NCBI GenBank assembly: GCA_002753505.1
Contig: PEAG01000024.1
Location: forward strand, 1-42,836
DNA from: Magnetococcales bacterium HCHbin5
GTDB lineage: Bacteria > Pseudomonadota > Magnetococcia > Magnetococcales > Magnetaquicoccaceae
Direction of reading: 5' to 3'
DNA length: 42,836 bases
Part shown: one piece after another, positions 288 to 21,040 of the stretch
Position numbering within the stretch: the first letter of the stretch is position 1
How the letters are laid out: every line of letters starts with the position of its first letter
Notes under the pieces: model-generated
Seen by the model: the letters and a program-made list of their open reading frames with translations, nothing else
What the model was told of the DNA's origin: nothing
Databases searched by the model: none
Program-made: the position numbers and the translations under genes

Positions 288-339
288 AGAAAATTTATGG
301 GTGGGCTGAATGGTTACCTGCTTTTCAAGGATGAAACCT

Positions 340-1425
340 ATGTTGCCTGAAATGTTGCTGTCCCGTTCCGACCTGCGCGCCATGATCCGCGTGATGCGCA
401 CCCTCTACCGTTTACAACAACGGCCCGCCTACCGCCTCCAACTGGCCGCAGAACTGCCGGAGGTGGCGCGCTTTGATCCGGGCCACGCCTCGGTCATGAT
501 GGGCTACGATTTTCACTTGACCCCAGAGGGTCCACGCCTGATCGAGGTCAATACCAATGCCGGCGGAGCCCTGCTGGCCTGCCGGGCCTACCATCCCACC
601 TTTCCCGCAACCTCCACGGAGCGCATCAATCGCTACCAAACCAGGCTGTTGGAAACCTTTGCCCGGGAGATGCACCTCTTCAGCGGTGGCCGCACCACCC
701 GGCCCAACCAGGTGATCATCCTGGATGAGGAACCAGAAAAACAGTATCTGGCCGAAGAGATGCACGTCATGCGCGGCCTGTTCAACCGCTGGGGCGTGGA
801 GGCAGCCCTGGCCGATCCATCGGCACTGGATATGGGGGAGGAGGGGGTCTTTTTCCAAGGCAAAACGGTCGATATGATCTACAACCGCCACTGCGATTTT
901 TATCTGGACAGCCCGGAACTGGCTGGGTTGCGGGCAGCCTACCTGGCAGGCCGCCTCTGCCTCACCCCCAACCCCCGTACCTACGCCCTGCTCGCCGACA
1001 AACGGCGCATGACTCTCTGGTCCGATCCCGCCCGACTCGCCGACCTGGGGCTGACAGAGTCGGAGAGGAGTACCCTGCAAACCGCCGTACCGGTCAGCCG
1101 ACTGCTGGCGCAAATGGAGCCGGATTCTCTCTGGAAAGAGCGTAAACGGTGGGTCTTCAAACCGGTTACCGCCTTTGGCAGCCGGGGGGTTCTCCTGGGC
1201 GACAGCATCTCCCGACAACGCTTTCAGGGACTGAATCCCGACACCACCCTGGTGCAGCAGTTCATCCCACCCACGGCAGCCGCCAACGGTCGCATGAAGG
1301 TGGATTGGCGACTCTTTGCCTACCAGGAGCAACTGCTGGGGGTGGCCCCACGCCTCTACCAGGGCCAAGTGACCAATTTTCGCGAATCCGGCAGTGGCTA
1401 CGCCCCCGTGCGCCTGACGCAATAA
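340..1425 (+). CDS. ATP-grasp-like protein, possibly circularly permuted
   Basis: Predicted cytosolic protein of 361 aa, substrate unknown. Seen: an EVNTNAGG motif (E69, N71), like the Mg-binding Glu-x-Asn of ATP-grasp ligases, and a later FKPVTAFGSRGV segment (K274, glycine-rich loop) like the nucleotide-binding lysine and loop, followed by a VDWRLFAY strand. In ordinary ATP-grasp enzymes the lysine and loop precede the E-x-N motif; the reverse order fits circularly permuted ATP-grasp families, which ligate a carboxylate to an amine or thiol. Start at 340 is chosen because AAGGAT lies 8 nt upstream; 310 and 331 are in-frame alternatives. No neighbour identifies the substrate. The ATP-grasp assignment is by motif only. 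Confidence 0.7.
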   Translation: MLPEMLLSRSDLRAMIRVMRTLYRLQQRPAYRLQLAAELPEVARFDPGHASVMMGYDFHLTPEGPRLIEVNTNAGGALLACRAYHPTFPATSTERINRYQTRLLETFAREMHLFSGGRTTRPNQVIILDEEPEKQYLAEEMHVMRGLFNRWGVEAALADPSALDMGEEGVFFQGKTVDMIYNRHCDFYLDSPELAGLRAAYLAGRLCLTPNPRTYALLADKRRMTLWSDPARLADLGLTESERSTLQTAVPVSRLLAQMEPDSLWKERKRWVFKPVTAFGSRGVLLGDSISRQRFQGLNPDTTLVQQFIPPTAAANGRMKVDWRLFAYQEQLLGVAPRLYQGQVTNFRESGSGYAPVRLTQ

Positions 1426-1600: not shown

Positions 1601-1798
1601 ATGAACCCGCAAGAGAAATCCAATCCTTCAGAAGGCTTTCAGGTAGAAGACCCCCTGGCCGTCTTTACGGCCTTCAGCCAAGAGGAGATCCGTCGTTGGC
1701 GCAGTACAGAGCCAGAGTTTGACGAAGAACTCCACCAAGAGGCGGTGTCGCTGGTCTTGGGGCGACTCAAACAACGGCTCGATACAGCGAAAAGATAG
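1601..1798 (+). CDS. Small acidic hypothetical protein, first gene of ATPase operon
   Basis: 65 aa, charged, no signal peptide or membrane segment; predicted mostly helical. Not recognised. A GTGAGG ribosome-binding sequence lies just before the ATG. The stop is 11 nt before the start of the Rad50/YhaN-like ATPase, so the two are probably co-transcribed. In YhaN-type operons a metallophosphoesterase (YhaO/SbcD-like) would be expected next to the ATPase; this protein is far too short to be one. It could be an accessory subunit. The 1426-1600 gap upstream holds no other gene I can support. Confidence 0.6.
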   Translation: MNPQEKSNPSEGFQVEDPLAVFTAFSQEEIRRWRSTEPEFDEELHQEAVSLVLGRLKQRLDTAKR

Positions 1799-1809
1799 GG
1801 GGAATCTGC

Positions 1810-4047
1810 ATGATCATTCAAGCGTTGCAAGCAGAAAATCTATTTAAATTCAAAAAATTATCACTGACCGGCCTGCCGACTGCCGGGCGTATTCTGCTGA
1901 GTGGACCGAATGAGTCCGGTAAAACGGCTGTGGTCGAGGCCATCTGTCTGGGACTGTTTGGCCGCACGGCCTCCCTGGAGGCCAGCCAACTGGCCAAAGC
2001 GGTCAAATGGGGTGAGGAGCAGGCGGCGGTCACCGTCACCTTTTCGGGCTCGGACGACCAGAGCTATACGGTTTGCCGCTATGTGGACGCCAAAGGCCAT
2101 GGTCAGGCCAGCCTCAGTCAAACCGGAGCGGATGAGCCGATGGTCAAGGGGGTGGAGGCGGTGGACCAGGCCGTCCTGGCTCTGGCCGGTTTTGATTTTC
2201 AACAGTACATGGAGACCCTTTTTCTGGCCCAGAACCCTCGGGAGGGTTCGGCCAGGGAGGAGACCATCCAAACCCTGGCCGGTGTGGCCGATCTCGATGG
2301 CTTGGCCAATGCGTTGACCGCCGAAATGGCGACCAGCGAAGCGGAGATTGCGCAGGGGGATGCCCAGGTGGAGCAGCTGCAGGCGCAACTGGCCGACCTG
2401 AACCTGCAGGAAGAGGCTTTGGGTACCCTGGAGCGGGAACGGGATGCAGCGGTGGAACAGTTGGCTGCAGTCGACCGGGAGATAGATCGCTGGCAGCTGT
2501 TTGCCGCTGAGATGCAGGGAGCGGCGGATGGCATTGAATCCCATACCGGTCGCCTCTTGCAGTGTGGTCTGGAGAGTGGTCTGGAGGCGTGGCAGAGTCG
2601 GGTCAAGTCGGTGGGGCAGGCCCTGGTCGGGATGGATGCGGTTTGTCAGCGGCATCACGTCGAGATGGATGCGGTGCCGGGGGCTGCTCTGCGCAAGGCA
2701 ACCGAGGATCTCGGCAAACGGCTCTCCAGGGCCACCGCTTTCATGGAAGAGGTGGCCAGCCATCGCTATGGGTTGGCGGTGTGGCTGGGAGAAATTCCCA
2801 GCAAAGAGGGGACGGATACCCTGCACAGAACCCAGTCCCAGCGGCACGAACAGCTGCTCTATTGCGCCAAGCGTCGCCAGCGTACCGGCCTCATGGTCAC
2901 CATTGCCCTGCTGTTGGGTCTGCTGTTGGGGGCAGCTGGCGGCCTGCTGCAGTTTCAGCCAGAGTCCAACCTTGCCAGCATGATTGTCCCCCTGCTGAAA
3001 ATGGTCTATCCTGCCTGGGATGCGGCCCTGTTGCCTGTCCTGTTTGGGGTGGCGGTCGTCTTTTTGCTGCTGGCCACCAATGGTGCCGGTCGCAACTTTG
3101 GCCTGCGCAAAAAGATGGTGGAACATGAGCAGGCGTTGGCTGCATTGAAGGCGCGTGAGGCGGTGGTGCGGCAGATGATCCAGAACATGGATGCCGCCGC
3201 CAAGGAGTCTCTGCCCCGTCAGGTGGAAAAACTGGTGCAGTTGGAGGAGGGGGAGTGGGTGGCCGGTTTGGCCGAGTGGGCCAAGGAGGAGGGGCTGTTC
3301 CTGCTGGATGCCAAGGCGCAACAAAAGTTCATGGCGCAATTGCAGGGCCATCTGGAGACATTTCGCCAGGAGATGGCGGCGGATGCGGCAGAGATTGCGG
3401 CCCAACAGGCCGCCTCCCAACAGGCCCGGCAACAGCTTGGCGTGACCATCGAGCAGTTGGAAGCGGCGATTGAACAGGAAAAGGCGCGGCGGGCGCAGGA
3501 TGCGGCGTGGCGGGCGGAGTGTGCAGCGTTGGCAGCGGAGCGTCTCCGGCAGAGCCACCAGATTGCGGTGCGGCGTATTGCCTGCACGTTGTTGCGTGGG
3601 GCGTGCAAAGGGTTGTCGATCCGCTTCAACCAGGAGTTGCGGCGTTTTATCGCCAAGGCAGCCCCTCTCTTCACCCAGGGGCGGTATCAGCATTTGCGGA
3701 TTGATGAGCAGTTGCAGGTTGCCGCCTTTTCCACGGCCAAGAATGATTTTGTCGATTTTGACGAAATTTCCACGGGGGTACGCTATCAGTTGCTGTTGGC
3801 GGTTCGGATGGCGTTGGCGCAGGCGTTGGCAGCCCGTGTAGGCCGTGCGCAGCAATTTATCGTGTTGGATGAGCCGTTTGTCTTTTTTGATCGTCAGCGT
3901 ATTCGGGAGTCCCTGGATGCCCTGCTTCGTGTCAGCGATCAGATCAGTCAGGTATGGGTCATTGCACAGGAGTATGAAGCGGCGTTGGCGGAGGATTTGC
4001 ATCTCTCCTGTCTGACTGAGGAAGACTCTTTGGTGTATCAGGGTTGA
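1810..4047 (+). CDS. Rad50/YhaN-like AAA ATPase with a central transmembrane hairpin
   Basis: 745-aa SMC/Rad50-type ATPase. Walker A is GPNESGKT (residues 32-39) in the N-terminal lobe, with a Q-loop-like LFLAQNPREG near residue 140. The C-terminal lobe has an ISTGVRYQ signature and Walker B FIVLDEPF (D687, E688). Between the lobes are long Ala/Glu/Gln-rich coiled coils interrupted by two hydrophobic segments (about 360-382 and 404-424). The coil tip is therefore a membrane hairpin, where Rad50 has a zinc hook. This layout is known from YhaN-like proteins, linked to DNA processing in Firmicutes, but function here is unknown. GGGGGAA precedes the ATG. The next gene starts 3 nt after the stop, so they form one operon. 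No nuclease partner is present in the window. Confidence 0.85.
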   Translation: MIIQALQAENLFKFKKLSLTGLPTAGRILLSGPNESGKTAVVEAICLGLFGRTASLEASQLAKAVKWGEEQAAVTVTFSGSDDQSYTVCRYVDAKGHGQASLSQTGADEPMVKGVEAVDQAVLALAGFDFQQYMETLFLAQNPREGSAREETIQTLAGVADLDGLANALTAEMATSEAEIAQGDAQVEQLQAQLADLNLQEEALGTLERERDAAVEQLAAVDREIDRWQLFAAEMQGAADGIESHTGRLLQCGLESGLEAWQSRVKSVGQALVGMDAVCQRHHVEMDAVPGAALRKATEDLGKRLSRATAFMEEVASHRYGLAVWLGEIPSKEGTDTLHRTQSQRHEQLLYCAKRRQRTGLMVTIALLLGLLLGAAGGLLQFQPESNLASMIVPLLKMVYPAWDAALLPVLFGVAVVFLLLATNGAGRNFGLRKKMVEHEQALAALKAREAVVRQMIQNMDAAAKESLPRQVEKLVQLEEGEWVAGLAEWAKEEGLFLLDAKAQQKFMAQLQGHLETFRQEMAADAAEIAAQQAASQQARQQLGVTIEQLEAAIEQEKARRAQDAAWRAECAALAAERLRQSHQIAVRRIACTLLRGACKGLSIRFNQELRRFIAKAAPLFTQGRYQHLRIDEQLQVAAFSTAKNDFVDFDEISTGVRYQLLLAVRMALAQALAARVGRAQQFIVLDEPFVFFDRQRIRESLDALLRVSDQISQVWVIAQEYEAALAEDLHLSCLTEEDSLVYQG

Positions 4048-4050
4048 CGA

Positions 4051-4953
4051 TTGAACAAATTTTGGCTGGCTCTCTTTGTCGCTGTCTTGCCACTGCTGGG
4101 TTGGAGTGTGGTGGTGGAGGGGCGTGTTCCTGATCCGACGGCGCGTACCATTCGGGTCAAAGGTTCTGACACCATGGCGGTGATTTCGTCCCGTTGGGCG
4201 ACCCGTTATCAGGCCGAGACGTCGGGAGTGACGGTGGATGTGGCGGCGGGCGGATCGGGCAATGGCATTTCAGCTCTGATCAATGGCCATGTAGAGATTG
4301 CGACGGCCAGTCGCCCGCTCAAGTCGCATGAGGTGCGGCAGATTGTCAGTCGTTCCGGCAAACAGCCGGTGCTGTTTCTGGTCGGCCTGGATGCCATCTC
4401 TGTGGTGGTGCATCCGCTGAATCCGGTGCTGGGTCTCTCTGTGCGGCAGTTGGCGGATATTTATGGCAGGGAGGGGAGCATCAAGCGTTGGAGTGATTTG
4501 GGGGTGGTGGTGCCTGGTTGTGAGGATCGGGAGATTGTGCGGATCAGTCGCAAAAACAATTCAGGCACCTATTATCTGTTTCGGCAGGATCTGTTCCATG
4601 CCAATGCCCATTTTCAAACCAACATGGATTATGTGGCCAGTTCGGAGGCGGTGGTGCAGCAGGTGGCGCAGACGCCCTGTGCGATCGGTTATGTGGGGAT
4701 GGGGTTTGTGACGGCGGCGGTCAAGACGTTGTGCATTACCAACAAGAAGGGTGGTTCCTGTGTGCCGCCGACGGTTGCGTCGGTCCTTGAAAAGCGTTAT
4801 CCGTTGGCACGCGACCTGTACATGGTGACGTTGGGGCCGCCTGCGGAGTTGGTCAAGGACTATTTGCAGTGGATTCTGGGGCCGGTTGGGCAGGAGATTG
4901 TCAAAAAATCCGGTTTTATCCCGGTTCCCAAGTCGGCGCAGAGGCCGTTCTAA
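4051..4953 (+). CDS. PstS-like periplasmic phosphate-binding protein
   Basis: 300 aa, PBP-like fold of the PstS family, which binds phosphate in the periplasm. Seen: an N-terminal signal peptide (hydrophobic residues about 5-20), the RVKGSDTM strand and P-loop, a GGSGNGISALING segment, TASRPL, a KNNSGTYYLF motif and IGYVGMGF near the C-terminus, in family order. The start is TTG at 4051, with AGGG about 9 nt upstream, 3 nt after the ATPase stop. No pstCAB genes follow; instead there is a repeat block and then, 1.5 kb on, a PiT permease and PhoB-type regulator. It may serve as a sensor or scavenger rather than part of an ABC importer. Family is clear; phosphate specificity is inferred. Confidence 0.85.
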   Translation: MNKFWLALFVAVLPLLGWSVVVEGRVPDPTARTIRVKGSDTMAVISSRWATRYQAETSGVTVDVAAGGSGNGISALINGHVEIATASRPLKSHEVRQIVSRSGKQPVLFLVGLDAISVVVHPLNPVLGLSVRQLADIYGREGSIKRWSDLGVVVPGCEDREIVRISRKNNSGTYYLFRQDLFHANAHFQTNMDYVASSEAVVQQVAQTPCAIGYVGMGFVTAAVKTLCITNKKGGSCVPPTVASVLEKRYPLARDLYMVTLGPPAELVKDYLQWILGPVGQEIVKKSGFIPVPKSAQRPF

Positions 4954-4961
4954 CCGGGGTG

Positions 4962-5675
4962 CCCCTGCTTTTTCTGATCTTTTCAAACGATTGCAGGGGT
5001 CCGGGGAGCGTCACGCTCCCCGGTGGGGTGCAGGGGCAAAGCCCCATCTACGCTAACATGATGGCTATTCCCCTGCTTTTTCTGATCTTTTCAAACGATT
5101 GCAGGGGTCCGGGGAGCGTCACGCTCCCCGGTGGGGTGCAGGGGCAAAGCCCCATCTACGCTAACATGATGGCTATTCCCCTGCTTTTTCTGATCTTTTC
5201 AAACGATTGCAGGGGTCCGGGGAGCGTCACGCTCCCCGGTGGGGTGCAGGGGCAAAGCCCCTGCATGTAACGGGCGCGCTTTCCCAAAAGCCCATTTGCG
5301 CAGCAAATGGGCGCAGCGCGCCCAAAACGCCCCGCAGGGGCACTCCTGGAGGGCGGCAGCCCGACCGAGAGCGGGCAATAGGTTATTGGGTTTGGAAAAA
5401 AAACCGACCCTGGCCTTGTATCAAACAGGAAGTGTAATACAATCAAAGCGTAATATCCGAACGTTCTGTCTTCTTACCCAAACATTTTCCGTAACATAAC
5501 CGTGCGAGTCGGGCTGCCGCCCTCCCAAGGTCGCCCCTGCGGGGCGGCTTTGTGCGCGTTGCGCAAATTTTCTGCGAAAATTTGCTTTGGGAAAACGCGC
5601 CGTTCATGCAGGGGCTTTGCCCCTGCACCCCACTGGGGACCGTGACGGTCCCCAGACCCCTGCAATCGTTTAAAG
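4962..5675. repeat. Composite palindromic element with a three-fold 108-bp tandem array
   Basis: Left arm: three tandem units whose gcagggg cores begin at 4993, 5101 and 5209, an exact 108-bp period. The third runs on into the full arm (gcccatttgc/gcaaatgggc hairpin near 5296-5318, ending agggcggcagcccgacc near 5365). A linker (about 5366-5507) containing cttgtatcaaacagg and cataaccgtgcgag follows. Then comes an inverted arm (5508-5669) with the cgggctgccgccct end and a caaatttt/gaaaatttg stem. In the tandem units the main stem is ggggagcgt/acgctcccc, not ggggaccgt/acggtcccc, with both arms changed together. It lies directly after the PstS-like gene. Confidence 0.9.
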
Positions 5676-6458: not shown

Positions 6459-7517
6459 ATGGATAGCAATACCGTCATGATGTTGATGTGGGCGACAATT
6501 GTCGTCGTGCTGATTTTCGACTTTACCAACGGGTTTCACGATGCCTCCAACATTACCGGCAGCATCATCGCCTCCCGTGCCATGACCCCTATTCAGGCGG
6601 CCCTGCTCACGGGCGTCTTCCACTTTATCGGCCCCATGCTGGGCGGGGTTGCCGTGGCCAACACCATCGGGGGGTTTGTCAAGATTGATGACCTGCCCAA
6701 GGTCATGTCGCTGACAGTGGTCCTGTGCGGCATTTTTGGTTCCATTTTCTGGAACCTGCTGACCTGGTTTTTCGGTCTGCCCTCCTCCTCCTCTCACGCC
6801 CTCGTGGGCGGCATCGCAGGAGCAGTGCTGTTCGCCGCCGGGGGTGACCATGTGGTGTGGGGGGTTGAGAAACTGGTGGTGGATGGCAAGATGACCGGCG
6901 TCACCAAAGTGGTTCTCTCCCTGTTCATCTCGCCCATCCTGGGGTTCTGGCTTGGGTATATGCTGCAGGTTCTCGTGCGCCGCCTGACCAATCGGGCCCG
7001 CCCCTCCATCGACAAGGTGTTCAAGTGGAGCCAATACATCAGTGCCGCCGCCCTCTCCTTTTCCCACGGCACCAATGATGCCCAGAAAAGCATGGGCATC
7101 ATCGGACTGGCCCTGTTTCTGGGCGGAGAGATCCCGAAGTTTGGCATTCCGTACTGGGTCATTGTCACCTGCGCGGTGGTCATCACCATCGGCAACATGT
7201 TTGGGGGCTGGCGTATCGTCCGCACTGTGGGCTTCGGCATCTATCGGGTGAGACCCATTCACTCTTTCAACGCACAACTCACCTCGGCGGCGGTCATCTT
7301 CGGGGCAGCCACCATGGGGGCACCGGTCTCCACCACCCATGTGGCCAGTTCCGGCATCATGGGGGTCGGTTCGGCAGACCGGCCCAAGGCGGTCAAGTGG
7401 CGCAAGGGTAAGGAGATCCTGGCCACTTGGTTGTTGACCATTCCGGGCTCCGGTCTGGTGGGGGGTGCAACCTATCTGCTGACTGACCTGATTTTCCATG
7501 TCAGTGCCGGTCGCTGA
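6459..7517 (+). CDS. pit: PiT-family low-affinity inorganic phosphate permease
   Basis: 352-aa inner-membrane protein of the PiT family, which co-transports metal-phosphate or phosphate with cations. Both family signatures are present: FDFTNGFHDASN near the N-terminus and SFSHGTNDAQKSMG in the second half, each followed by hydrophobic helices, reflecting the internal duplication typical of the family. About 10 membrane segments are visible and length is normal for the short bacterial type. A GGAG lies 8-12 nt before the ATG. The next gene, 72 bp downstream, encodes the DUF47 partner normally paired with such permeases, and a PhoB-type regulator follows. Confidence 0.95.
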   Translation: MDSNTVMMLMWATIVVVLIFDFTNGFHDASNITGSIIASRAMTPIQAALLTGVFHFIGPMLGGVAVANTIGGFVKIDDLPKVMSLTVVLCGIFGSIFWNLLTWFFGLPSSSSHALVGGIAGAVLFAAGGDHVVWGVEKLVVDGKMTGVTKVVLSLFISPILGFWLGYMLQVLVRRLTNRARPSIDKVFKWSQYISAAALSFSHGTNDAQKSMGIIGLALFLGGEIPKFGIPYWVIVTCAVVITIGNMFGGWRIVRTVGFGIYRVRPIHSFNAQLTSAAVIFGAATMGAPVSTTHVASSGIMGVGSADRPKAVKWRKGKEILATWLLTIPGSGLVGGATYLLTDLIFHVSAGR

Positions 7518-7589
7518 GTCCGGGACGGCAGACTGCATCAATGTGTCACATATCATACACTTTCAGATAACGAACAATAGGAGAAAACC

Positions 7590-8285
7590 ATGAGTGGATC
7601 CAGTCCCGTCTTTGGGAGCTTGTTGGACAACGTGCTGCCCCGCGTCCCGCCCTTCTTCAAAATGTTGCACGAGCAGACGGAAATGCTCGTCAAGACCTTT
7701 TCCGCGCTTGTCCTCTACCTGGAAAGCGGCGAGCATATCCGGGCCGGGGAGGTGGCCGCCATGGAGACCCAGGCCGCCGAGTACAAGGAAAAATTGCTGG
7801 AGGTGTTGAACAACTCCTTCTCAACCCCCATGGACCGTGAGGATGTTTTCCGCTCCATCACCTCCATCCACGAGCCCATCTGGTCGGCCCGCATCGCCGC
7901 CGAGGAGATGGATGCCCTGGGCATCAAGTCCGACCGTTTTGCGGTGGAGATTGCCACCATCCTGCGCGAGGCCGCCATCTCCCTGGAACGGGGCTACAGC
8001 AAGATGGAAAAAAGCCCGAGCAGCGCGGATGGCGACGCGGTGGCGGCCACCCGTTGCCGGGCCAGCATTGACAAGGCCTATCGTCGGGCGCTGGCGGCAC
8101 TCTACAACGTGGATGCCACCCTGAAGTCCTTGCAGGAGAACGATACCAACGCCAAGGTGGATGCCATGAACCATGTGGTGGATATTCTCAAGCGTCGGGA
8201 GATGTATCGTCACCTCCATTTTGCGGGTCGGCAGATGGCGGACGCGGGCTCGGTCCTCCATGGCATTATTGTGCAATTGAGCTAG
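7590..8285 (+). CDS. DUF47 family (PhoU-like) accessory protein of the phosphate permease
   Basis: 231-aa all-helical cytosolic protein of the DUF47/TIGR00153 family, structurally related to PhoU. Family members sit next to PiT permeases and are thought to modulate them. Seen: long amphipathic helices, a MLHEQTEMLVKTF N-terminal segment, acidic EEMDALGIKSDRFAVE in the middle and a C-terminal RREMYRHLHFAGRQMADAG helix typical of the family. TAGGAGA precedes the ATG at good spacing. It probably forms an operon with the permease upstream. Confidence 0.92.
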   Translation: MSGSSPVFGSLLDNVLPRVPPFFKMLHEQTEMLVKTFSALVLYLESGEHIRAGEVAAMETQAAEYKEKLLEVLNNSFSTPMDREDVFRSITSIHEPIWSARIAAEEMDALGIKSDRFAVEIATILREAAISLERGYSKMEKSPSSADGDAVAATRCRASIDKAYRRALAALYNVDATLKSLQENDTNAKVDAMNHVVDILKRREMYRHLHFAGRQMADAGSVLHGIIVQLS

Positions 8286-8327
8286 CAGGGCAGCCAATCC
8301 GTATTTCCCACCCGTACCACATCTGAT

Positions 8328-8354
8328 CCGTGGGGGGGCAGAGCCCCCCCACGG
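8328..8354 (+). terminator. GC-rich hairpin between the DUF47 gene and phoB
   Basis: Perfect 12-bp inverted repeat ccgtgggggggc / gcccccccacgg with a 3-nt loop, 43 bp after the DUF47 stop and 84 bp before phoB. The stem is very stable but no T-run follows, so it may be a weak or factor-assisted terminator, or an RNA-processing or stability element. Confidence 0.5.
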
Positions 8355-8437
8355 TGTGGTCTCGGCGTGGCGTCTCGGTTGTGCAGCCGTTACCGTAATA
8401 ACCCCTCTTCAAAACGTCCCAACCGGGATACTGTACC

Positions 8438-9130
8438 ATGGCCAGCATTTTGATCATCGAAGATGAAACAGACCTGTTAGCCACCCTGGAGTACAACCTG
8501 CAGCGTGAGGGGTATCGAACCTATGCCTTTTCCACTGGCGAAGAGGGGTTGGAGTGGGCTCTGCAGCAGGACTCGCTGGATTTGGCTCTGCTGGATGTCA
8601 TGCTGCCGGGCATCTCCGGCATTGAGGTCTGCCATCGCCTGCACAGTCATGAGCGGACCCGCGGTACACCCATCGTCTTTCTCAGTGCCAGACGGGAAGA
8701 TATTGACCGGGTGATCGGTTTTGAGTTGGGTGCTGACGATTATGTCGCCAAACCGTTTAACGTCCGGGAGCTGATGTTGCGCATCCGCGCCGTGCTGCGG
8801 CGTACCAGTCCGGAGAGCGTCGGCCAGTATGGCACACAGCGAGTACTCGACAACCTCCGACTGGACAGCAAAAGCCACCAACTCTGGATTGATGCCCAGG
8901 AGGTGATGCTGACCCCGGTGGAGTTCAAACTGCTCTCCCTGCTGCTGGCCCGCAAAGGGTGTGTCCAATCACGAGAAGCCCTGCTGGCCGAGGTCTGGCA
9001 TGTGGATACCTCGATTCAGAGTCGTACCGTGGATGTCCATATCAAACGGCTCCGCGAAAAGCTCGGCACCGCCGGGACGATGCTCGAGACCGTGCGCGGG
9101 ATCGGCTATCGGATCCGGGAACACCACTGA
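8438..9130 (+). CDS. phoB: OmpR/PhoB-family response regulator, probable PhoB
   Basis: 230-aa DNA-binding response regulator. The receiver domain (about 1-120) has the acidic pocket E8-D9, phospho-acceptor D53 in LALLDVMLPG, the conserved hydroxyl residue in IVFLSAR and the lysine in YVAKPFN. The C-terminal winged helix (about 135-228) has the VMLTPVEFKLLSLL, SRTVDVHIKRLREK and VRGIGYR segments of PhoB-type regulators. Its place directly after the phosphate permease and DUF47 genes supports PhoB, activator of the phosphate-starvation regulon. No PhoR kinase gene follows; the downstream DUF302 gene is on the other strand. The ribosome-binding site is weak. Confidence 0.88.
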   Translation: MASILIIEDETDLLATLEYNLQREGYRTYAFSTGEEGLEWALQQDSLDLALLDVMLPGISGIEVCHRLHSHERTRGTPIVFLSARREDIDRVIGFELGADDYVAKPFNVRELMLRIRAVLRRTSPESVGQYGTQRVLDNLRLDSKSHQLWIDAQEVMLTPVEFKLLSLLLARKGCVQSREALLAEVWHVDTSIQSRTVDVHIKRLREKLGTAGTMLETVRGIGYRIREHH

Positions 9131-15362: not shown

Positions 15363-16634
15363 GTGACTTCAGCACGAACAAAGCAATTGTTTGAGCGTAT
15401 GGTGACGATCTGGCAAGCGTTATGGCTGGATCATCCGACGTTTCAGAACGAGGAACGCCCGTTGCGTGCCCAATGGGAAGACACCAAGGGGCGGATTACA
15501 GCACTGGCAAAGGAAATTTATGACAACCAGAACTCTGCACCCTGTCCGCGTCCGGTAGAGCTGGCCGCATTGGACAAAGCCTTGTATCAGGAGCATATGA
15601 CAAATCCGGGAGGAGATCGCATATGCTCTGATGTGACTGTAAATGGCCAGAAATTTCATGTCTACCTGCGCAGTTTTCCGCGCCCGTTCTCTCTGCATGA
15701 CACCCAAAGTGGTCATTTGGCGTTTTGGTTGCGTCACTATCGGATCGTACCGGCCTCCATCAGGGGTTATAGCGTCGATATAAAATTTTTGGATAGCACA
15801 TCAAACAAAAAGTTGCGCGGGGAGGGGAAAATCGCGCGTGTTTACCTGGGCACATTCCCGGATGGCTGTACTCCGGATTGGTCGGAGAAACATAAGCCAT
15901 ATTATGTGGCGGATAAAATAACGAATCCAGATCGTCGGCTTGGTTCCATCCTCCAGGCACTGGAAGAGGCAGAGCAGCAGGGAGCACAGGTCGTTTTGTT
16001 TCCAGAGTTGACGGTTACTGTTGCGCATCGGCAGGAGATCTGTCGTTGGCTGAATGGTCGTGAGCACCCTTTTTTGCTTGTGGTTCCCGGGAGCTTTCAC
16101 AAGGGCGCGCTGCCTGGTGAAAAGGCTCAATCATCCTGTAACGATCGACGCAATCAATCCTGTATTCTGAACAGTGCCGGTGTACCCTTGTTGGAACAGG
16201 ATAAATTGGTCCCTCTTTTTGTGCGCAACAGGTTGGAGGGAAACAACTCCTCGTCCACAGAGGACAAGAGATGTTTCGAGGGCGTGGGTTCGGCGGAAAA
16301 GATTCATCTGCTGGATACGGACATTGGACTGATTGCTTTGGCGATTTGCCGCGATCTGCTGCAAGAAAGTTCTCCGATCACCGATATTTGGGAATCTTTG
16401 GCCCCGGATTGGATCCTGGTGCCCTCCATGTCCGAAGGTGTGAGCGGGCACCAGTTGACGGCCGAACGGCTGTTTCGCATGTACGGCACCCGGGTATTGG
16501 TGGCCAATCAATGTTTGGCTGGCAAATTTGAGAAGGCGAGTCACGGCTTTGTTTCCCCCCTTCGAATACCGTTGGGTGAAATATTGCCCATTGCACCGCA
16601 TAATCGGCTGGCGAATGTGTCCATTCCAGGTTAA
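15363..16634 (+). CDS. Nitrilase-superfamily carbon-nitrogen hydrolase, first gene of the NLR-like operon
   Basis: 423 aa. The C-terminal two thirds form a carbon-nitrogen hydrolase domain with the full catalytic triad: Glu215 in VVLFPELTV, Lys281 in DKLVPLF and Cys329 in ALAICRDLL, with HPFLLVVPGSFHK between. Such enzymes hydrolyse amides or nitriles, or transfer acyl groups. The N-terminal ~180 residues are not recognised and make it longer than free-standing amidases. No signal peptide or membrane segment. Start is GTG at 15363 with AAAGGGG upstream. Sixty bp separate it from the next gene in the same direction. Position before a NACHT protein suggests an effector or regulator; the substrate cannot be read from sequence. 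Confidence 0.85.
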   Translation: MTSARTKQLFERMVTIWQALWLDHPTFQNEERPLRAQWEDTKGRITALAKEIYDNQNSAPCPRPVELAALDKALYQEHMTNPGGDRICSDVTVNGQKFHVYLRSFPRPFSLHDTQSGHLAFWLRHYRIVPASIRGYSVDIKFLDSTSNKKLRGEGKIARVYLGTFPDGCTPDWSEKHKPYYVADKITNPDRRLGSILQALEEAEQQGAQVVLFPELTVTVAHRQEICRWLNGREHPFLLVVPGSFHKGALPGEKAQSSCNDRRNQSCILNSAGVPLLEQDKLVPLFVRNRLEGNNSSSTEDKRCFEGVGSAEKIHLLDTDIGLIALAICRDLLQESSPITDIWESLAPDWILVPSMSEGVSGHQLTAERLFRMYGTRVLVANQCLAGKFEKASHGFVSPLRIPLGEILPIAPHNRLANVSIPG

Positions 16635-16694: not shown

Positions 16695-17756
16695 ATGACC
16701 ATCGACCTTATGCATGACCTTCCTTTCATTCTGGCTGACACAGCCACAACCGACGAGTTGTGGAAAGCTGTGGCGGCTACTGAGCTTTGGACCCAGCGGG
16801 CCGCAGAGGTTTTGGACTATGTTTACCGGGTGCGTGTTGCCATGTTGCTGCGCACCCAGACGCCTCCTGACTCATTGCGCTGCTGGATTGAGCATCTGCA
16901 ACAGGTGGCGCAGTCTCGATTGCCAGAACAACTGGAAAGCCTGAATAAATCGTATGCAAGTCGATGGCTGGCTTTGCGGGATTTACTGGTTGAACGGTCT
17001 GATCATTATCCTGCGCCCCCCCTGCCAGCCGATCAAAGTTTGCCGGCAACTCTGTGGAAAACCGTACAGGACACCTCGGATTGGACACAGGAAGCAGCGG
17101 CAACGATGGATCAAGCCTACCGGACGGGCTTGATCGTGTTGTTGTGCAGTAAAACGGTTGATGCCGAGTTGGCTCGTTGGAGTGAACATCTGGGGCGGGT
17201 GGCCCATCCCCTCCTGCGGCAGGCACTGGAAAAGTTGGAAAAACGCTATATCAGTCGGTGGCAGCTGTTGCGGGAGTTGCTGGAGGATCGCTTGGCAATG
17301 CGCCGCTACCCCTTGCCAGAGTTGTTTCTGGAACGCCCTCATGTACAAACAACCTTGCAGCGGGTGGCCGATGGTGAGCTGAAAATAAAAGCCGCGTTGG
17401 AACAGCAAAAAGAGCATGAGGAACAGGATTTTACGCATAGTATGGAGCTGTTGGAACGATTGGAGTTGATTCGCTACGACATCGTGGACGGAAAAGAGAT
17501 CCTGTCGCTAAGTGTTCGGGCCGCGGATCTCCCGGCCGGGTATCTGCGGGCAGGATCTCTGGCTCAACCAAACAACATCAACGATGATCAAAGCGCATCA
17601 GATACAGGACCAAAGGCTGGAGTGGTTATATCCGGCTCTTCGGGAACCGCGAAATCTTGGCTTGCTCGAAGAGGGTCGAATGATCTTTTATGCGGCGTTG
17701 ATGGAGCAATCGGCAAGATAGATGCACAGGAACGCCGGAGGGCGGCAGCAGCATGA
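16695..17756 (+). CDS. Tandem-module helical protein of the NLR-like operon (C-terminus uncertain)
   Basis: 353 aa, not recognised. It contains two homologous modules (about 22-106 and 120-207) sharing ELWK/TLWK..V, a W-T-Q-x-A-A motif, Y-R, W-x-E-H-L, and a final S-R-W-x-x-L-R-x-L-L. Each is predicted as a helical bundle. A charged coiled segment (about 225-265) follows. From about 17584 another frame reads more like protein (45 residues including LEWLYPALREPRN and MIFYAALMEQ, ending TAG at 17719-17721), while the annotated frame becomes low in typical codons. However, the annotated stop overlaps the next ATG as ATGA, which favours it. A frameshift, programmed or a sequence error, is possible. 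Probably an adaptor for the NACHT protein. Confidence 0.65.
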   Translation: MTIDLMHDLPFILADTATTDELWKAVAATELWTQRAAEVLDYVYRVRVAMLLRTQTPPDSLRCWIEHLQQVAQSRLPEQLESLNKSYASRWLALRDLLVERSDHYPAPPLPADQSLPATLWKTVQDTSDWTQEAAATMDQAYRTGLIVLLCSKTVDAELARWSEHLGRVAHPLLRQALEKLEKRYISRWQLLRELLEDRLAMRRYPLPELFLERPHVQTTLQRVADGELKIKAALEQQKEHEEQDFTHSMELLERLELIRYDIVDGKEILSLSVRAADLPAGYLRAGSLAQPNNINDDQSASDTGPKAGVVISGSSGTAKSWLARRGSNDLLCGVDGAIGKIDAQERRRAAAA

Positions 17757-20700
17757 ACAACACTCTCTGCGCCACCTTTTACAGCTTTAAAGGGGGAGTG
17801 GGGCGTTCCATGTTGTTGGCCAATGTGGCCGCAGCCCTGGCTCTTGATTTGGTGGAACCGAACCAATCTCTTCGGAGTTCCAAGCGGGTGTTGATATGGG
17901 ATCTGGACCTGGAAGCTCCGGGTTTGCATCTGTTGGGAGCCCTGACTCCGCAACAACCTCCCACGCAAGGGTTTCTGGATTGGTTGGCCGACTGGCAAGT
18001 TGCCTCTGGTGACGTTGTTCCCGATGAAAACCAGATCAAACAGTTGCTGGAAAAGAGTATTTGTCCCCTGGGGAGGCTGGTCAAGCCGGCTCGGGACTCA
18101 ACCGGCGCAGCGGCAGGCCATGCGCAGAAATCGACAAGCCATTGGGAGCCGTTGGAGGGGTTGTCCCTGTTGCCAGCCATGTCTGGGGATACCGTTGATC
18201 TGGTTGCCTACGCCTTGATCGACTGGCATCAGATCCTGGTGGAACGGGCAGATATTGGCAAGCGGTTGTTTTTGGCCATTCTGGCGCAAGCGGCCAGAGA
18301 GTTTGACTATATCCTGATTGATTCCCGTACCGGGTTGACTGATCTGGGGGGAATTTTAACGGCTGTGTTGCCGCATGTTACGGTTTTGGTGGCCAATTAC
18401 AGTCGACAGAACACCCACGGGATTTCCGCGATTCACCAGGCTCTGACGATAGCAGTCGACGGCCACCACCCGGCGCGTGCCGCTCTGGATCAGCCAGCCT
18501 TGGAGTTGATAACCGTGGCCTCGCCCGTGCCTGCGGAGGACGCCCGGTTGTTGGAGGAGCGACGTGCCGTATGGCACCAACAGTTTCCCAATAGTCAGGC
18601 TCTGGAAATTCCGCTTTTGCCCGAGCTGTTGTTGCTGGAGTCGCTGCCTGTTTTGAGTGGTACGGATGTTCAAGCCAAGCCGTATGTGCAAGTGGCTATG
18701 CGTTTGAATTTATTGCGTCAGAATGATCAAGCGGAGAGGGAGAAAGAGGCAGAAGCCAAGGAGATCTATTCGGATCCTTCTGACCAGAGGGGGAAAGGCA
18801 GCGATCAGGGGTTCCGTTTTGAGCAGCAAGTGGCTCGGTTGTTAAGTCTGTTGGGATATAGTGTGGAAGAGAAACAACTGGTGGGTGGGAATCAGGTGGA
18901 TTTGATTGCCCGACAGAGCCGCGGTTTTGAGATGGTCTGTTATCTGGTGGAGTGCAGGGACCATAAAGGGCCAAAGGGCAAAGCGGTGTTGGAAAAGTTG
19001 CAGGGTTGGACGCAGGGTGAGGCGGGCAAAAAACTGGGTTGCCGGGCCATGGTGGTGGCCCATGATTTTACCTACCAGGCGCGCAGCTATGCCAAAGAGC
19101 AGAACATGGTGCTGACAACGCCCGAAGAGATGGAAAACATGCTTTTTCCGTTTCCGGCCTATCTGGCCGGTTTGCGGCAGGCGTTTGAGCAAAGCCGTTT
19201 GGCCCGTACCTATGTTGGGCAAAAGGTATTGCTGGAGGCGGAGCCGCAGCCGGAGGGGGTGGATCTGCTGGAGTATGCCGTGCGCTGGGCGACGGGTCAG
19301 GTTGGCAAAAATTTATGGTTGCTGCTGGGCGACTATGGCACCGGCAAAACAGCATTTTTTAAACGGTTGGCCTATGAGCTTGCTGTGCGGGCCGAAAAGG
19401 AGCCTGGCCAACCCATGCCCTTGGCCATCAACCTGAAACAGTTTCCCAACGCGGTCTCGCTGAAAACCCTGATCCAGGAATATTTGCGGGACCAGCAACA
19501 GTGGATTGGCGACCCGGAGATCCTGTTATACCTGCTGGAACAGGGGCGGTTGGTGTTGCTGCTGGATGCCTTTGACGAGATGGGCACGGCCACCATTGGC
19601 CGGAGTGTAGAGGAGCAATTTCGCCAATTGGCCTGGGCTGCCACCCGGGGCAAAGCGCGGGTACTCATCACCTGTCGCACCCATTTTTTCCGCGACCAGC
19701 AACAGATCAAGCGGCAGTTTTTGACGGCGCAGGACAGCCTGATCAGTCAGGACTCTCCCCTGGGGCAGGTGGCACGGGGTTTTGATGCCGCCCTGGACGA
19801 GTTGTTGCTTTTCAACCCGGCGCAAATCGAGCAATTTTTGCGGCAATCCCTGCAAAATGATCCGCAGCGCATGGACGAGGCGCAAAAATTTATTGAAAAC
19901 ACCTATAACCTGGGCAATTTGGCCCCCAGGCCGGTGATGCTGGAGATGATTCTGGGCTCGCTGGACACGTTGATGGCGGGGGCCGCAGCGCAGCAAAAAA
20001 TGACCCCCGCCCAACTCTACCATGCCTATACCAGTGAATGGTTGGAGGATCGCAGCAGCAAGCAGTTGCAGACCGGGGTGGAGCAGCGGCGCAAACTGTT
20101 GGAGCATCTGGCCTGGCTGCTGTGGAGTCAGCCCCAAAACCGCATTCACCATCAGGCGTTGGTGGATTTTCTGGCAACTCTTCAGAGTCGGGAGTTTGCC
20201 GGACTGGACCTGACGCGGGTTGACCTGGAGCTGCGCACGGCCACCTTTCTGACTCGCACCAATGAGGGCTATTTCAGTTTTTCCCACAAAAGCTTTCTGG
20301 AATTTTTTTGTGGTCGCTTTTTGTACCGCGCCCTGCAGGATAAAACCGCAGCGGCCAATCTGGCCAAGGCATTGAATACCACGCCGCTGACCAAAGAGAC
20401 GGGCGCATTTTTTGCGGATATGTTGGGGGAGTCGGACAGGGAAACCCTGGCACCCATTCTGCGCGACATTTTGTCGCAAGATTATCAACCCCGGGTGAGT
20501 GAAAATGCCCTGCGCTTGGCATATGGTGTGGCTGAACAGAGATCGGACTCGGGGGGCGTGCTACAAACGGAAATGAAAAAAATGGTGCCTGCCGGTGCCA
20601 AACTGGCCAGGGCTGAATTGGCAGGAGATGACTTGTTTGGGGGATGGTTGCGTGGAGCCGACTTGGCCGGGGCAAATTTATCCAGAACAAGTCTGGTGGG

Positions 20701-21040
20701 AGCAGATCTGAGCGGAGCCAATTTAACGGGGGCGATTCTGGAAGGTGCTAATTTGTTTGACGTGCAGGCTGTCGGAACAAATTTTAGTCAAGCAAATATG
20801 CGGGGTGCAGATCTTCCTTTTGGCCGTTTTGAGCAGGCAATATTCGCAGGGGCGGATATGCGCGGCGTTAGCGGCCAAGAGGCAGGATGGACGGCGGCCG
20901 ATTTTAACGGGGCCAACTTGGCGGGAGCCGTTTTATCCCCGGTCGATGCGCCGGACAAGCTTTTCGCGGGAGCAAACCTGGAAGATGTTGTCTGGGCTGC
21001 TGTTTCTCATCCTTCAGCAGAAAAATTAGTTGATCTTTGA
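17753..21040 (+). CDS. KGGVGR P-loop / Mrr-like nuclease / NACHT NTPase / pentapeptide-repeat fusion protein
   Basis: 1095 aa, four regions. (1) MinD/ParA-like NTPase, about 1-330: P-loop FKGGVGRS (12-19) with Arg18 where ParA has Lys, D50-x-D52 in IWDLDLEAPG, and YILIDSRTG (D190). (2) Mrr-like restriction endonuclease fold, about 350-470: GFRFEQQVARLL, GGNQVDLIA (D383), VECRD (E400, R402 where Lys is usual) and an FTYQARSYAKE helix. (3) NACHT NTPase, about 500-900: Walker A GDYGTGKT (526-533), Walker B LLLDAFDEMG (D605, D608-E609), RVLITCRTHF (636-645), then a helical region ending HKSFLEFFCGRFL. (4) Pentapeptide repeats of A(D/N)LxG type, about 949-1085. Resembles NLR-like bacterial immune sensors. 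GGAGGG 10 nt upstream supports the ATG. Function inferred. Confidence 0.88.
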   Translation: MNNTLCATFYSFKGGVGRSMLLANVAAALALDLVEPNQSLRSSKRVLIWDLDLEAPGLHLLGALTPQQPPTQGFLDWLADWQVASGDVVPDENQIKQLLEKSICPLGRLVKPARDSTGAAAGHAQKSTSHWEPLEGLSLLPAMSGDTVDLVAYALIDWHQILVERADIGKRLFLAILAQAAREFDYILIDSRTGLTDLGGILTAVLPHVTVLVANYSRQNTHGISAIHQALTIAVDGHHPARAALDQPALELITVASPVPAEDARLLEERRAVWHQQFPNSQALEIPLLPELLLLESLPVLSGTDVQAKPYVQVAMRLNLLRQNDQAEREKEAEAKEIYSDPSDQRGKGSDQGFRFEQQVARLLSLLGYSVEEKQLVGGNQVDLIARQSRGFEMVCYLVECRDHKGPKGKAVLEKLQGWTQGEAGKKLGCRAMVVAHDFTYQARSYAKEQNMVLTTPEEMENMLFPFPAYLAGLRQAFEQSRLARTYVGQKVLLEAEPQPEGVDLLEYAVRWATGQVGKNLWLLLGDYGTGKTAFFKRLAYELAVRAEKEPGQPMPLAINLKQFPNAVSLKTLIQEYLRDQQQWIGDPEILLYLLEQGRLVLLLDAFDEMGTATIGRSVEEQFRQLAWAATRGKARVLITCRTHFFRDQQQIKRQFLTAQDSLISQDSPLGQVARGFDAALDELLLFNPAQIEQFLRQSLQNDPQRMDEAQKFIENTYNLGNLAPRPVMLEMILGSLDTLMAGAAAQQKMTPAQLYHAYTSEWLEDRSSKQLQTGVEQRRKLLEHLAWLLWSQPQNRIHHQALVDFLATLQSREFAGLDLTRVDLELRTATFLTRTNEGYFSFSHKSFLEFFCGRFLYRALQDKTAAANLAKALNTTPLTKETGAFFADMLGESDRETLAPILRDILSQDYQPRVSENALRLAYGVAEQRSDSGGVLQTEMKKMVPAGAKLARAELAGDDLFGGWLRGADLAGANLSRTSLVGADLSGANLTGAILEGANLFDVQAVGTNFSQANMRGADLPFGRFEQAIFAGADMRGVSGQEAGWTAADFNGANLAGAVLSPVDAPDKLFAGANLEDVVWAAVSHPSAEKLVDL

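Follow-up and report, generated by a model that had tools for sequence, protein, structure and literature searches.

Why would a Rad50-type ATPase with two membrane helices at the tip of its coiled coil be encoded directly between a 65-aa protein and a PstS-like periplasmic binding protein? The question arose from an initial annotation of a 42,836-nucleotide stretch of Magnetococcales bacterium HCHbin5 (contig PEAG01000024.1 of assembly GCA_002753505.1; below, the window). We found the three open reading frames described there with the same spacers, 11 nt between the 65-aa gene and the ATPase gene and 3 nt between the ATPase and the PstS-like gene, and both the list of open reading frames and a Pfam scan agreed that no nuclease gene adjoins them in the window. 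An ATP-grasp ligase gene at 310–1425 had been overlooked and is part of the same conserved run. The genes of the run that lie in the window are as follows:

310..1425, forward strand: ATP-grasp ligase gene, 371 aa, the first gene of the run present on the contig (PF02655, structure model, synteny)
1601..1798, forward strand: gene of the candidate 65-aa soluble partner protein (open reading frame, conserved position 5' of the ATPase)
1810..4047, forward strand: predicted membrane-tethered Rad50/SMC-type ATPase gene, 745 aa (Pfam, profile, hydropathy, AlphaFold2 model)
4051..4953, forward strand: PstS-like binding protein gene, 300 aa, TTG start (PBP_like_2, TIGR02136, solved-structure matches, tree)

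The analysis established the anatomy of this locus, the sequence topology and family of the ATPase, the gene order and the descent within the Magnetococcales. Our answer to the question, held tentatively and at somewhat less than even confidence, is that the ATPase may be a tethered Rad50/SMC-type engine with the 65-aa protein as its regulator, a module placed within a transporter–ligase–binding-protein run.

The Rad50-type heads ascribed to the ATPase were borne out. Pfam family AAA_23 matched above its cut-off (2.1e-9), SbcC_Walker_B stayed below it (0.002), and a profile of 22 relatives matched solved Rad50 at 5.5e-34. As in the Rad50/SMC-type superfamily, the Walker A, signature and Walker B motifs lie at both ends of the chain, with coils between them. 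A Foldseek search with the ATPase model placed Rad50 at the top and Smc5/6, MukB and LmuB lower, with low whole-chain TM scores, as expected for a protein with long coils. The head motifs are:

1903..1926, forward strand: Walker A, GPNESGKT, residues 32–39; G32, E35, G37 and K38 invariant in 44 sequences
3769..3783, forward strand: ABC signature region, STGVR, residues 654–658; S654 and G656 invariant in 44 sequences
3853..3891, forward strand: Walker B/D-loop, QFIVLDEPFVFFD, residues 682–694; D687, E688, P689, F690 and D694 invariant in 44 sequences

The alignment of 44 ATPase sequences contains 27 invariant columns, nearly all of them within the heads. When 22 proteins were compared over nine segments, the mean pairwise identity was 45–50% in the heads and 19–27% in the other seven. 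As the heads are conserved and the coils, membrane helices and loop are not, the selected work of the ATPase is likely located at the cytoplasmic heads, with the hairpin apparently serving as an anchor. Members of the Rad50/SMC superfamily usually clamp DNA or another polymer, and by this analogy DNA may be the substrate.

The second structural claim, that the coil tip is a two-helix membrane hairpin, held as well. Hydropathy placed two hydrophobic segments, residues 361–379 and 405–423, in the middle of the coil, and in the AlphaFold2 model (44 input sequences, mean pLDDT 87.8, pTM 0.50) the coil helices continue directly into the two membrane helices, between which lies a short helix, residues 387–399:

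2890..2946, forward strand: predicted first membrane helix, residues 361–379 (hydropathy, AlphaFold2 model)
2947..3021, forward strand: predicted outer loop with short helix, residues 380–404 (model, lysine/arginine density, identity)
3022..3078, forward strand: predicted second membrane helix, residues 405–423 (hydropathy, AlphaFold2 model)

The 79 loci submitted to topology analysis gave 63 proteins with two clear segments, the window's included, and in all 63 the density of lysine and arginine was higher in both coil flanks than in the loop. This bias should put both heads and coils on the cytoplasmic side and leave only the loop, about 25 residues, in the periplasm.

A loop predicted to face the periplasm would suit a trans-envelope receptor, in which the binding protein, once loaded with its ligand, would dock on the outer side of the hairpin and govern how the heads engage in the cytoplasm. 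The adjacency of the two genes, kept in 30 of 32 loci including that of genome G028, which has no convincing PstC, is also consistent with this. However, the loop has a mean pairwise identity of 20%, the second lowest of the nine segments, and the hairpin exists also in ATPase relatives without a PstS-like neighbour. We therefore regard such a receptor as improbable. Slightly more so is its fuller form, a receptor-gated SMC-type ATPase: a family of membrane-spanning SMC/Rad50-like machines of 65-aa protein and hairpin ATPase, undescribed in the papers found, in which the periplasmic binding protein of magnetotactic cocci would pass a chemical signal from outside through the hairpin to DNA-handling heads. 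We favour the tethered engine with its 65-aa regulator over a receptor that senses the binding protein through the outer loop.

The heads raise the question of whether the ATPase is a known member of the superfamily. Rad50 and SbcC have ABC heads split by antiparallel coils, as the window ATPase does, and gave the best profile and structure matches; in contrast to them, the window ATPase carries a membrane hairpin at the tip and has a 65-aa partner and no adjacent nuclease gene. With its hairpin tip, no SbcD/Mre11 gene beside it and SbcCD encoded elsewhere in the genome, we rejected SbcC/Rad50 proper. YhaN shares the Rad50-type heads and probably also has a membrane hairpin in its coil. The initial annotation had called the ATPase YhaN-like, a name that fails as family membership: AAA_27 (PF13514) scored 0.026 and 14.6 bits against a cut-off of 22 bits. 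Its neighbours are the ATP-grasp, 65-aa and PstS-like genes, with no YhaO-type phosphoesterase gene among them, and YhaN was thus rejected too. As a control, the YhaN of genome G027 (1153 aa, AAA_27 8.4e-68, 228.5 bits) lies beside a YhaO-type gene and apart from that genome's own copy of the run; the same pairing was recognised by eye in G029.

An SbcC or YhaN might still work with a nuclease encoded at a distance, and the Rad50-type heads and an SbcD in the genome fit this. The initial annotation had proposed looking for such a partner elsewhere in the genome: an SbcD (with an SbcD_C domain) is indeed present in HCHbin5, but it adjoins its own 1225-aa SbcC, as the YhaO-type genes of G027 and G029 have their own YhaN. 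SbcD was found above cut-off in 22 of 48 Magnetococcales genomes, and the ATPase occurs both with and without it. Given also the differences in length, tip and partner, we give this explanation the least credence of all.

Almost as little can be said for a defence system of the Lamassu or MADS kind. Lamassu LmuB is an SMC-like ATPase, and in the profile scan the window ATPase matched LmuB weakly (1.2e-11) and mad3 similarly (1.3e-11), with LmuB at rank 18 among the structure matches. On the other hand, Rad50 profiles and structures match better, a padloc scan of the 65-aa, ATPase and PstS-like proteins found neither an LmuA effector nor another known one among these three (the ATP-grasp neighbour being outside the scan), and the ATPase is widespread in the Magnetococcales, where it forms one clade. 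A literature search limited to open-licence papers found no account of such an ATPase family.

The initial annotation had allowed that the operon may be accidental and had proposed gene order in relatives as the check. The ATPase was strongly matched in 33 of 48 Magnetococcales genomes, HCHbin5 included, and in none of 52 other genomes; weak matches were found in G021 (6.9e-4) within the order and in G096 (4.6e-4) and G099 (1.7e-5) outside it. A profile search of 398 Pseudomonadota genomes matched 34 of the 48 Magnetococcales, namely the same 33 and a weak match in G020 near its SbcD, and in the other 350 genomes gave 38 partial matches (best 1.6e-21), mostly to frames longer than 1000 aa, and no full-length members. 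For each of the three neighbours, 32 Magnetococcales loci could be examined: the 65-aa gene lies 5' of the ATPase in all 32, the PstS-like gene follows 3' in the same orientation in 30, and 26 have a same-strand ATP-grasp ligase gene no further than about 2 kb upstream. Genome G005, whose contig begins within the ATPase, was excluded from the 65-aa and ligase counts and G015, whose contig ends, from the PstS-like count; the ligase of G042 was counted from a fragment at the contig end, and G012 was kept although a stop interrupts its ATPase. The ligase exceptions are G008, where one inserted gene intervenes, G018, where the ligase is 9 kb away, G013, G025 and G026, where it is on another contig (G013, with 3.6 kb of upstream sequence, being scored as absent), and G023, which has none. 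The gene grouping is real, old and conserved in magnetotactic cocci, and the three-gene order is not accidental. In G012 (contig C306, L031/L186; an incomplete genome), a single in-frame TGA splits the ATPase into two frames.

Conservation reaches further upstream. Of the 29 loci for which 2.7 kb or more of upstream sequence was available, 24 have a major facilitator superfamily (MFS) gene in the same orientation within 5 kb upstream; it precedes the ligase in all of these except G023, which has no ligase, and the copy at locus L032 is MFS_1-like (9e-76). The window's contig begins too late to include this gene. Further upstream still, a divergent polA was seen in 12 loci of several families. 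As this upstream block is conserved too, part of the order is plain synteny and weaker evidence of function. The halves of the run could thus be hitch-hikers with unrelated jobs that have stayed together since synteny erodes slowly in the order, and the occurrence of the PstS-like gene without the ATPase, and vice versa, fits that account. Against it, the neighbours 3' of the PstS-like gene differ between groups, yet the ATPase–PstS pair is kept, and the pair also persists in G018, G025 and G026 although these three have their ligase at another site and lack a nearby MFS gene. A DedA-like 3' neighbour, for example, occurs in only eight loci, all of family f1; many loci have little sequence 3' of the PstS-like gene, and the neighbour counts come from a separate listing, as the gene clusters contain antisense frames beside real genes. 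We consider hitch-hiking a real possibility, less probable than a tethered engine and well ahead of the receptor.

The run also comes apart in informative ways. The ligase and PstS-like genes adjoin without the ATPase in G006, G020 and G032 (gaps of 199, 31 and 51 nt), which marks the 65-aa/ATPase pair as separable. G006 belongs to the window's genus, and as five of the other six genomes there, the window's own included, carry the ATPase, its absence in G006 is likelier a loss; no convincing ATPase remnant was found between the ligase and PstS genes of G006 (best E 1.2). In G024, the MFS and ligase genes adjoin, and the ATPase was not found in the genome.

A single-sequence scan of genome contigs found no ATPase relative, whereas a profile scan succeeded and gave at least 79 loci: L032–L037 from Magnetococcales, L038–L086 from elsewhere (49 loci) and the distant L087–L110. 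Among the matches listed, to which all counts on these 49 loci refer, the records are mostly Gammaproteobacteria, many named as sulfur oxidisers, together with Binatia, Planctomycetota, Wallbacteria and one Rubrivivax; this last record (L073) is nearly identical in sequence to a Lamprocystis record (L065). Apparent ATPase fusions of 1091–1093 aa in these two records contain runs of N and were rejected. The 65-aa gene was found in 44 of the 49 loci, and in 29 of the 44 its called frame overlaps that of the ATPase by 4 nt. Of the five misses, L056 is cut, and at the corresponding position L069 and L086 have a short frame without a match; in L082 and L085 no 65-aa gene was recognised beside the ATPase. 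Within the flanks covered, no ligase gene was found in any of the 49 loci, nor was a PstS-like gene. The wider core is the pair of 65-aa protein and ATPase, without PstS in Gammaproteobacteria, Binatota and Planctomycetota.

In a tree of 44 ATPases, all 21 Magnetococcales proteins form one clade (support 100/99). The two ATPase copies of G023, which lack a PstS-like neighbour, diverge first (94/90), a fork that is not fully supported. The simplest account is descent within the Magnetococcales, the link to PstS having been gained after the split of G023 or lost in G023. The second ATPase copy of G023 (contig C75; L036 2301–7226, L165) is followed by a secreted-looking 382-aa protein without a Pfam family and by a 1258-aa protein whose N-terminus is hydrophobic, whose C-terminal part carries a metallo-beta-lactamase domain and which matches mad2 weakly. 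The 24 loci L087–L110 encode distant Rad50/YhaN-like ATPases of archaea, Chloroflexota, Bacillota and others, and at least one strongly hydrophobic segment was present in 15 of the 19 scored.

The 65-aa protein gave no convincing match in Pfam, NCBIfam or the Protein Data Bank (PDB), the Pfam and PDB matches being scattered and at chance level, and hydropathy found no transmembrane segment in it.

The identification of the last gene as PstS-like was upheld by PBP_like_2 (2e-39, Pfam), with TIGR02136 at 201.4 bits, just below its cut-off of 206.6; the N-terminus is hydrophobic and, by eye, signal-like. The closest solved relatives are the phosphate binding proteins 4PQJ and 4OMB (1.7e-38 and 2.6e-38), which we take to be PstS of the Pseudomonas aeruginosa type. 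Unlike these, the protein has no PstC gene beside it and falls in a separate clade; the one PstC above cut-off in the window's genome lies on contig C164, close to a different PstS. We compared PstS-like proteins encoded next to the ATPase (cassette proteins; 28 of 30, those of G012 and G046 being omitted as incomplete) with PstS from transporter operons. In a tree of 57 PstS-type proteins, the 15 operon PstS and four others group on one side (100/99) with none of the 28 cassette proteins inside; several cassette proteins sit on long branches of unsure placement, and taken together the cassette proteins do not form one clade. The His of an NGH motif is present in 28/28 cassette proteins versus 0/15 operon PstS. 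The presumed phosphate-site residues, assigned from what we take to be the site of Escherichia coli PstS, are kept as SDT and SGT in 15/15 operon PstS, whereas the Thr of SDT is kept in 17/28 cassette proteins, SGT in 15/28 and both in 14/28. The cassette proteins of family f13 (7/28) have SNA for SDT and SGD for SGT, an acidic residue at the presumed phosphate site. In genome G028 (99% complete), the cassette is present but the best PstC match, at 1.6e-9, is unconvincing; G002 carries the ATPase and neither a PstS match nor a convincing PstC. We prefer to see the binding protein as an orphan whose ligand is its own and has possibly changed.

These results bear on the phosphate link drawn initially. 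As a phosphate sensor, the PstS-like protein would bind phosphate and make chromosome handling, or the storage of polyphosphate, depend on how much is available. Such a sensor would fit the family-level similarity to PstS and the cassette proteins with both motifs intact. According to PMC8786505, magnetotactic cocci store polyphosphate, and a tie of sulfur and phosphorus metabolism is suggested; this makes a phosphate role thinkable and is not evidence for the cluster. The link appears weak given the separation of cassette proteins from the transporter clade, G028 and the changed residues of f13. A Pho-box scan gave no excess 5' of the ligase or 65-aa gene (the only low shuffle scores being 3/200 in G044 and 12/200 in G029), although only one of 14 control transporter operons stood out (L128, 4/200), so that the E. 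coli consensus, as we assumed it to be, had no power here. Genes for a PiT-type transporter, a DUF47/PhoU-like protein and a PhoB-like regulator lie at 6459–9130 on the forward strand, from 1.5 kb 3' of the cassette; within the flanks covered, none of the other 32 loci has this cluster next to the cassette. Overall, we rate the phosphate sensor as quite unlikely, below the receptor and above a defence role.

The ATP-grasp ligase matched PF02655 (ATP-grasp_3) barely above the cut-off (4e-5, 24.2 bits versus 23.2). Its model (pLDDT 73, four sequences) shares its fold with glutathione and glutathionylspermidine synthetases and YgiC (TM scores of about 0.5–0.6), with only 8–16% identity over the structure alignments listed. 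The ligase probably forms an amide bond.

Taken as a tethered engine, the 65-aa protein and the ATPase would form a two-protein machine whose heads work in the cytoplasm at the expense of ATP and whose coil tip is anchored in the inner membrane, the two-helix hairpin replacing a hinge or zinc hook. The 65-aa protein would take the place of the nuclease or kleisin of relatives and probably regulates the heads. In the Magnetococcales, the gene run reads MFS transporter, ATP-grasp ligase, the 65-aa/ATPase pair and the orphan PstS-family binding protein, and production of the tethered ATPase would probably be tied to uptake or assembly of the binding protein's ligand.

Several observations weigh against this reading. 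G002 and G023 have the ATPase without a PstS-like gene downstream, the loci outside the order have none either, and the conserved upstream block and poorly conserved outer loop, described above, do not speak for a functional link. The 65-aa protein has no known relative, and its role is a guess from gene order; its place in the machine and the physiological link to the binding protein are proposals. DNA binding by the ATPase we infer from analogy with the superfamily, and co-transcription of the cluster from spacing and conserved order.

The analysis delimits a separable family of Rad50/SMC-type ATPases that are anchored, by sequence, in the inner membrane and have a small partner of their own where relatives have a nuclease or kleisin; its members occur in magnetotactic cocci, in numerous gammaproteobacterial records named as sulfur oxidisers and beyond. 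Should the heads handle DNA, there would be a direct physical link between chromosome and membrane, and should the binding protein act through the ATPase, a signal from outside would reach the machine.

Elsewhere in the window, a gene at 17753–21040 (forward strand) encodes a 1095-aa protein with a ParA-like KGGVGR start (by eye), an Mrr nuclease, NACHT and pentapeptide repeats, which looks like a NACHT/STAND defence-type protein. It is preceded by a weakly nitrilase-like gene (15363–16634; PF00795 at 20.7 bits versus a cut-off of 23.2) and an unknown gene (16695–17756). The window also contains a dispersed GC-rich palindromic repeat with ten sites (132, 241, 5003–5237, 5635, 15170, 21357, 21486 and 24554) and two versions of a 19-base core, three of the repeats, at 5003, 5111 and 5219, being in a 108-base tandem spacing.

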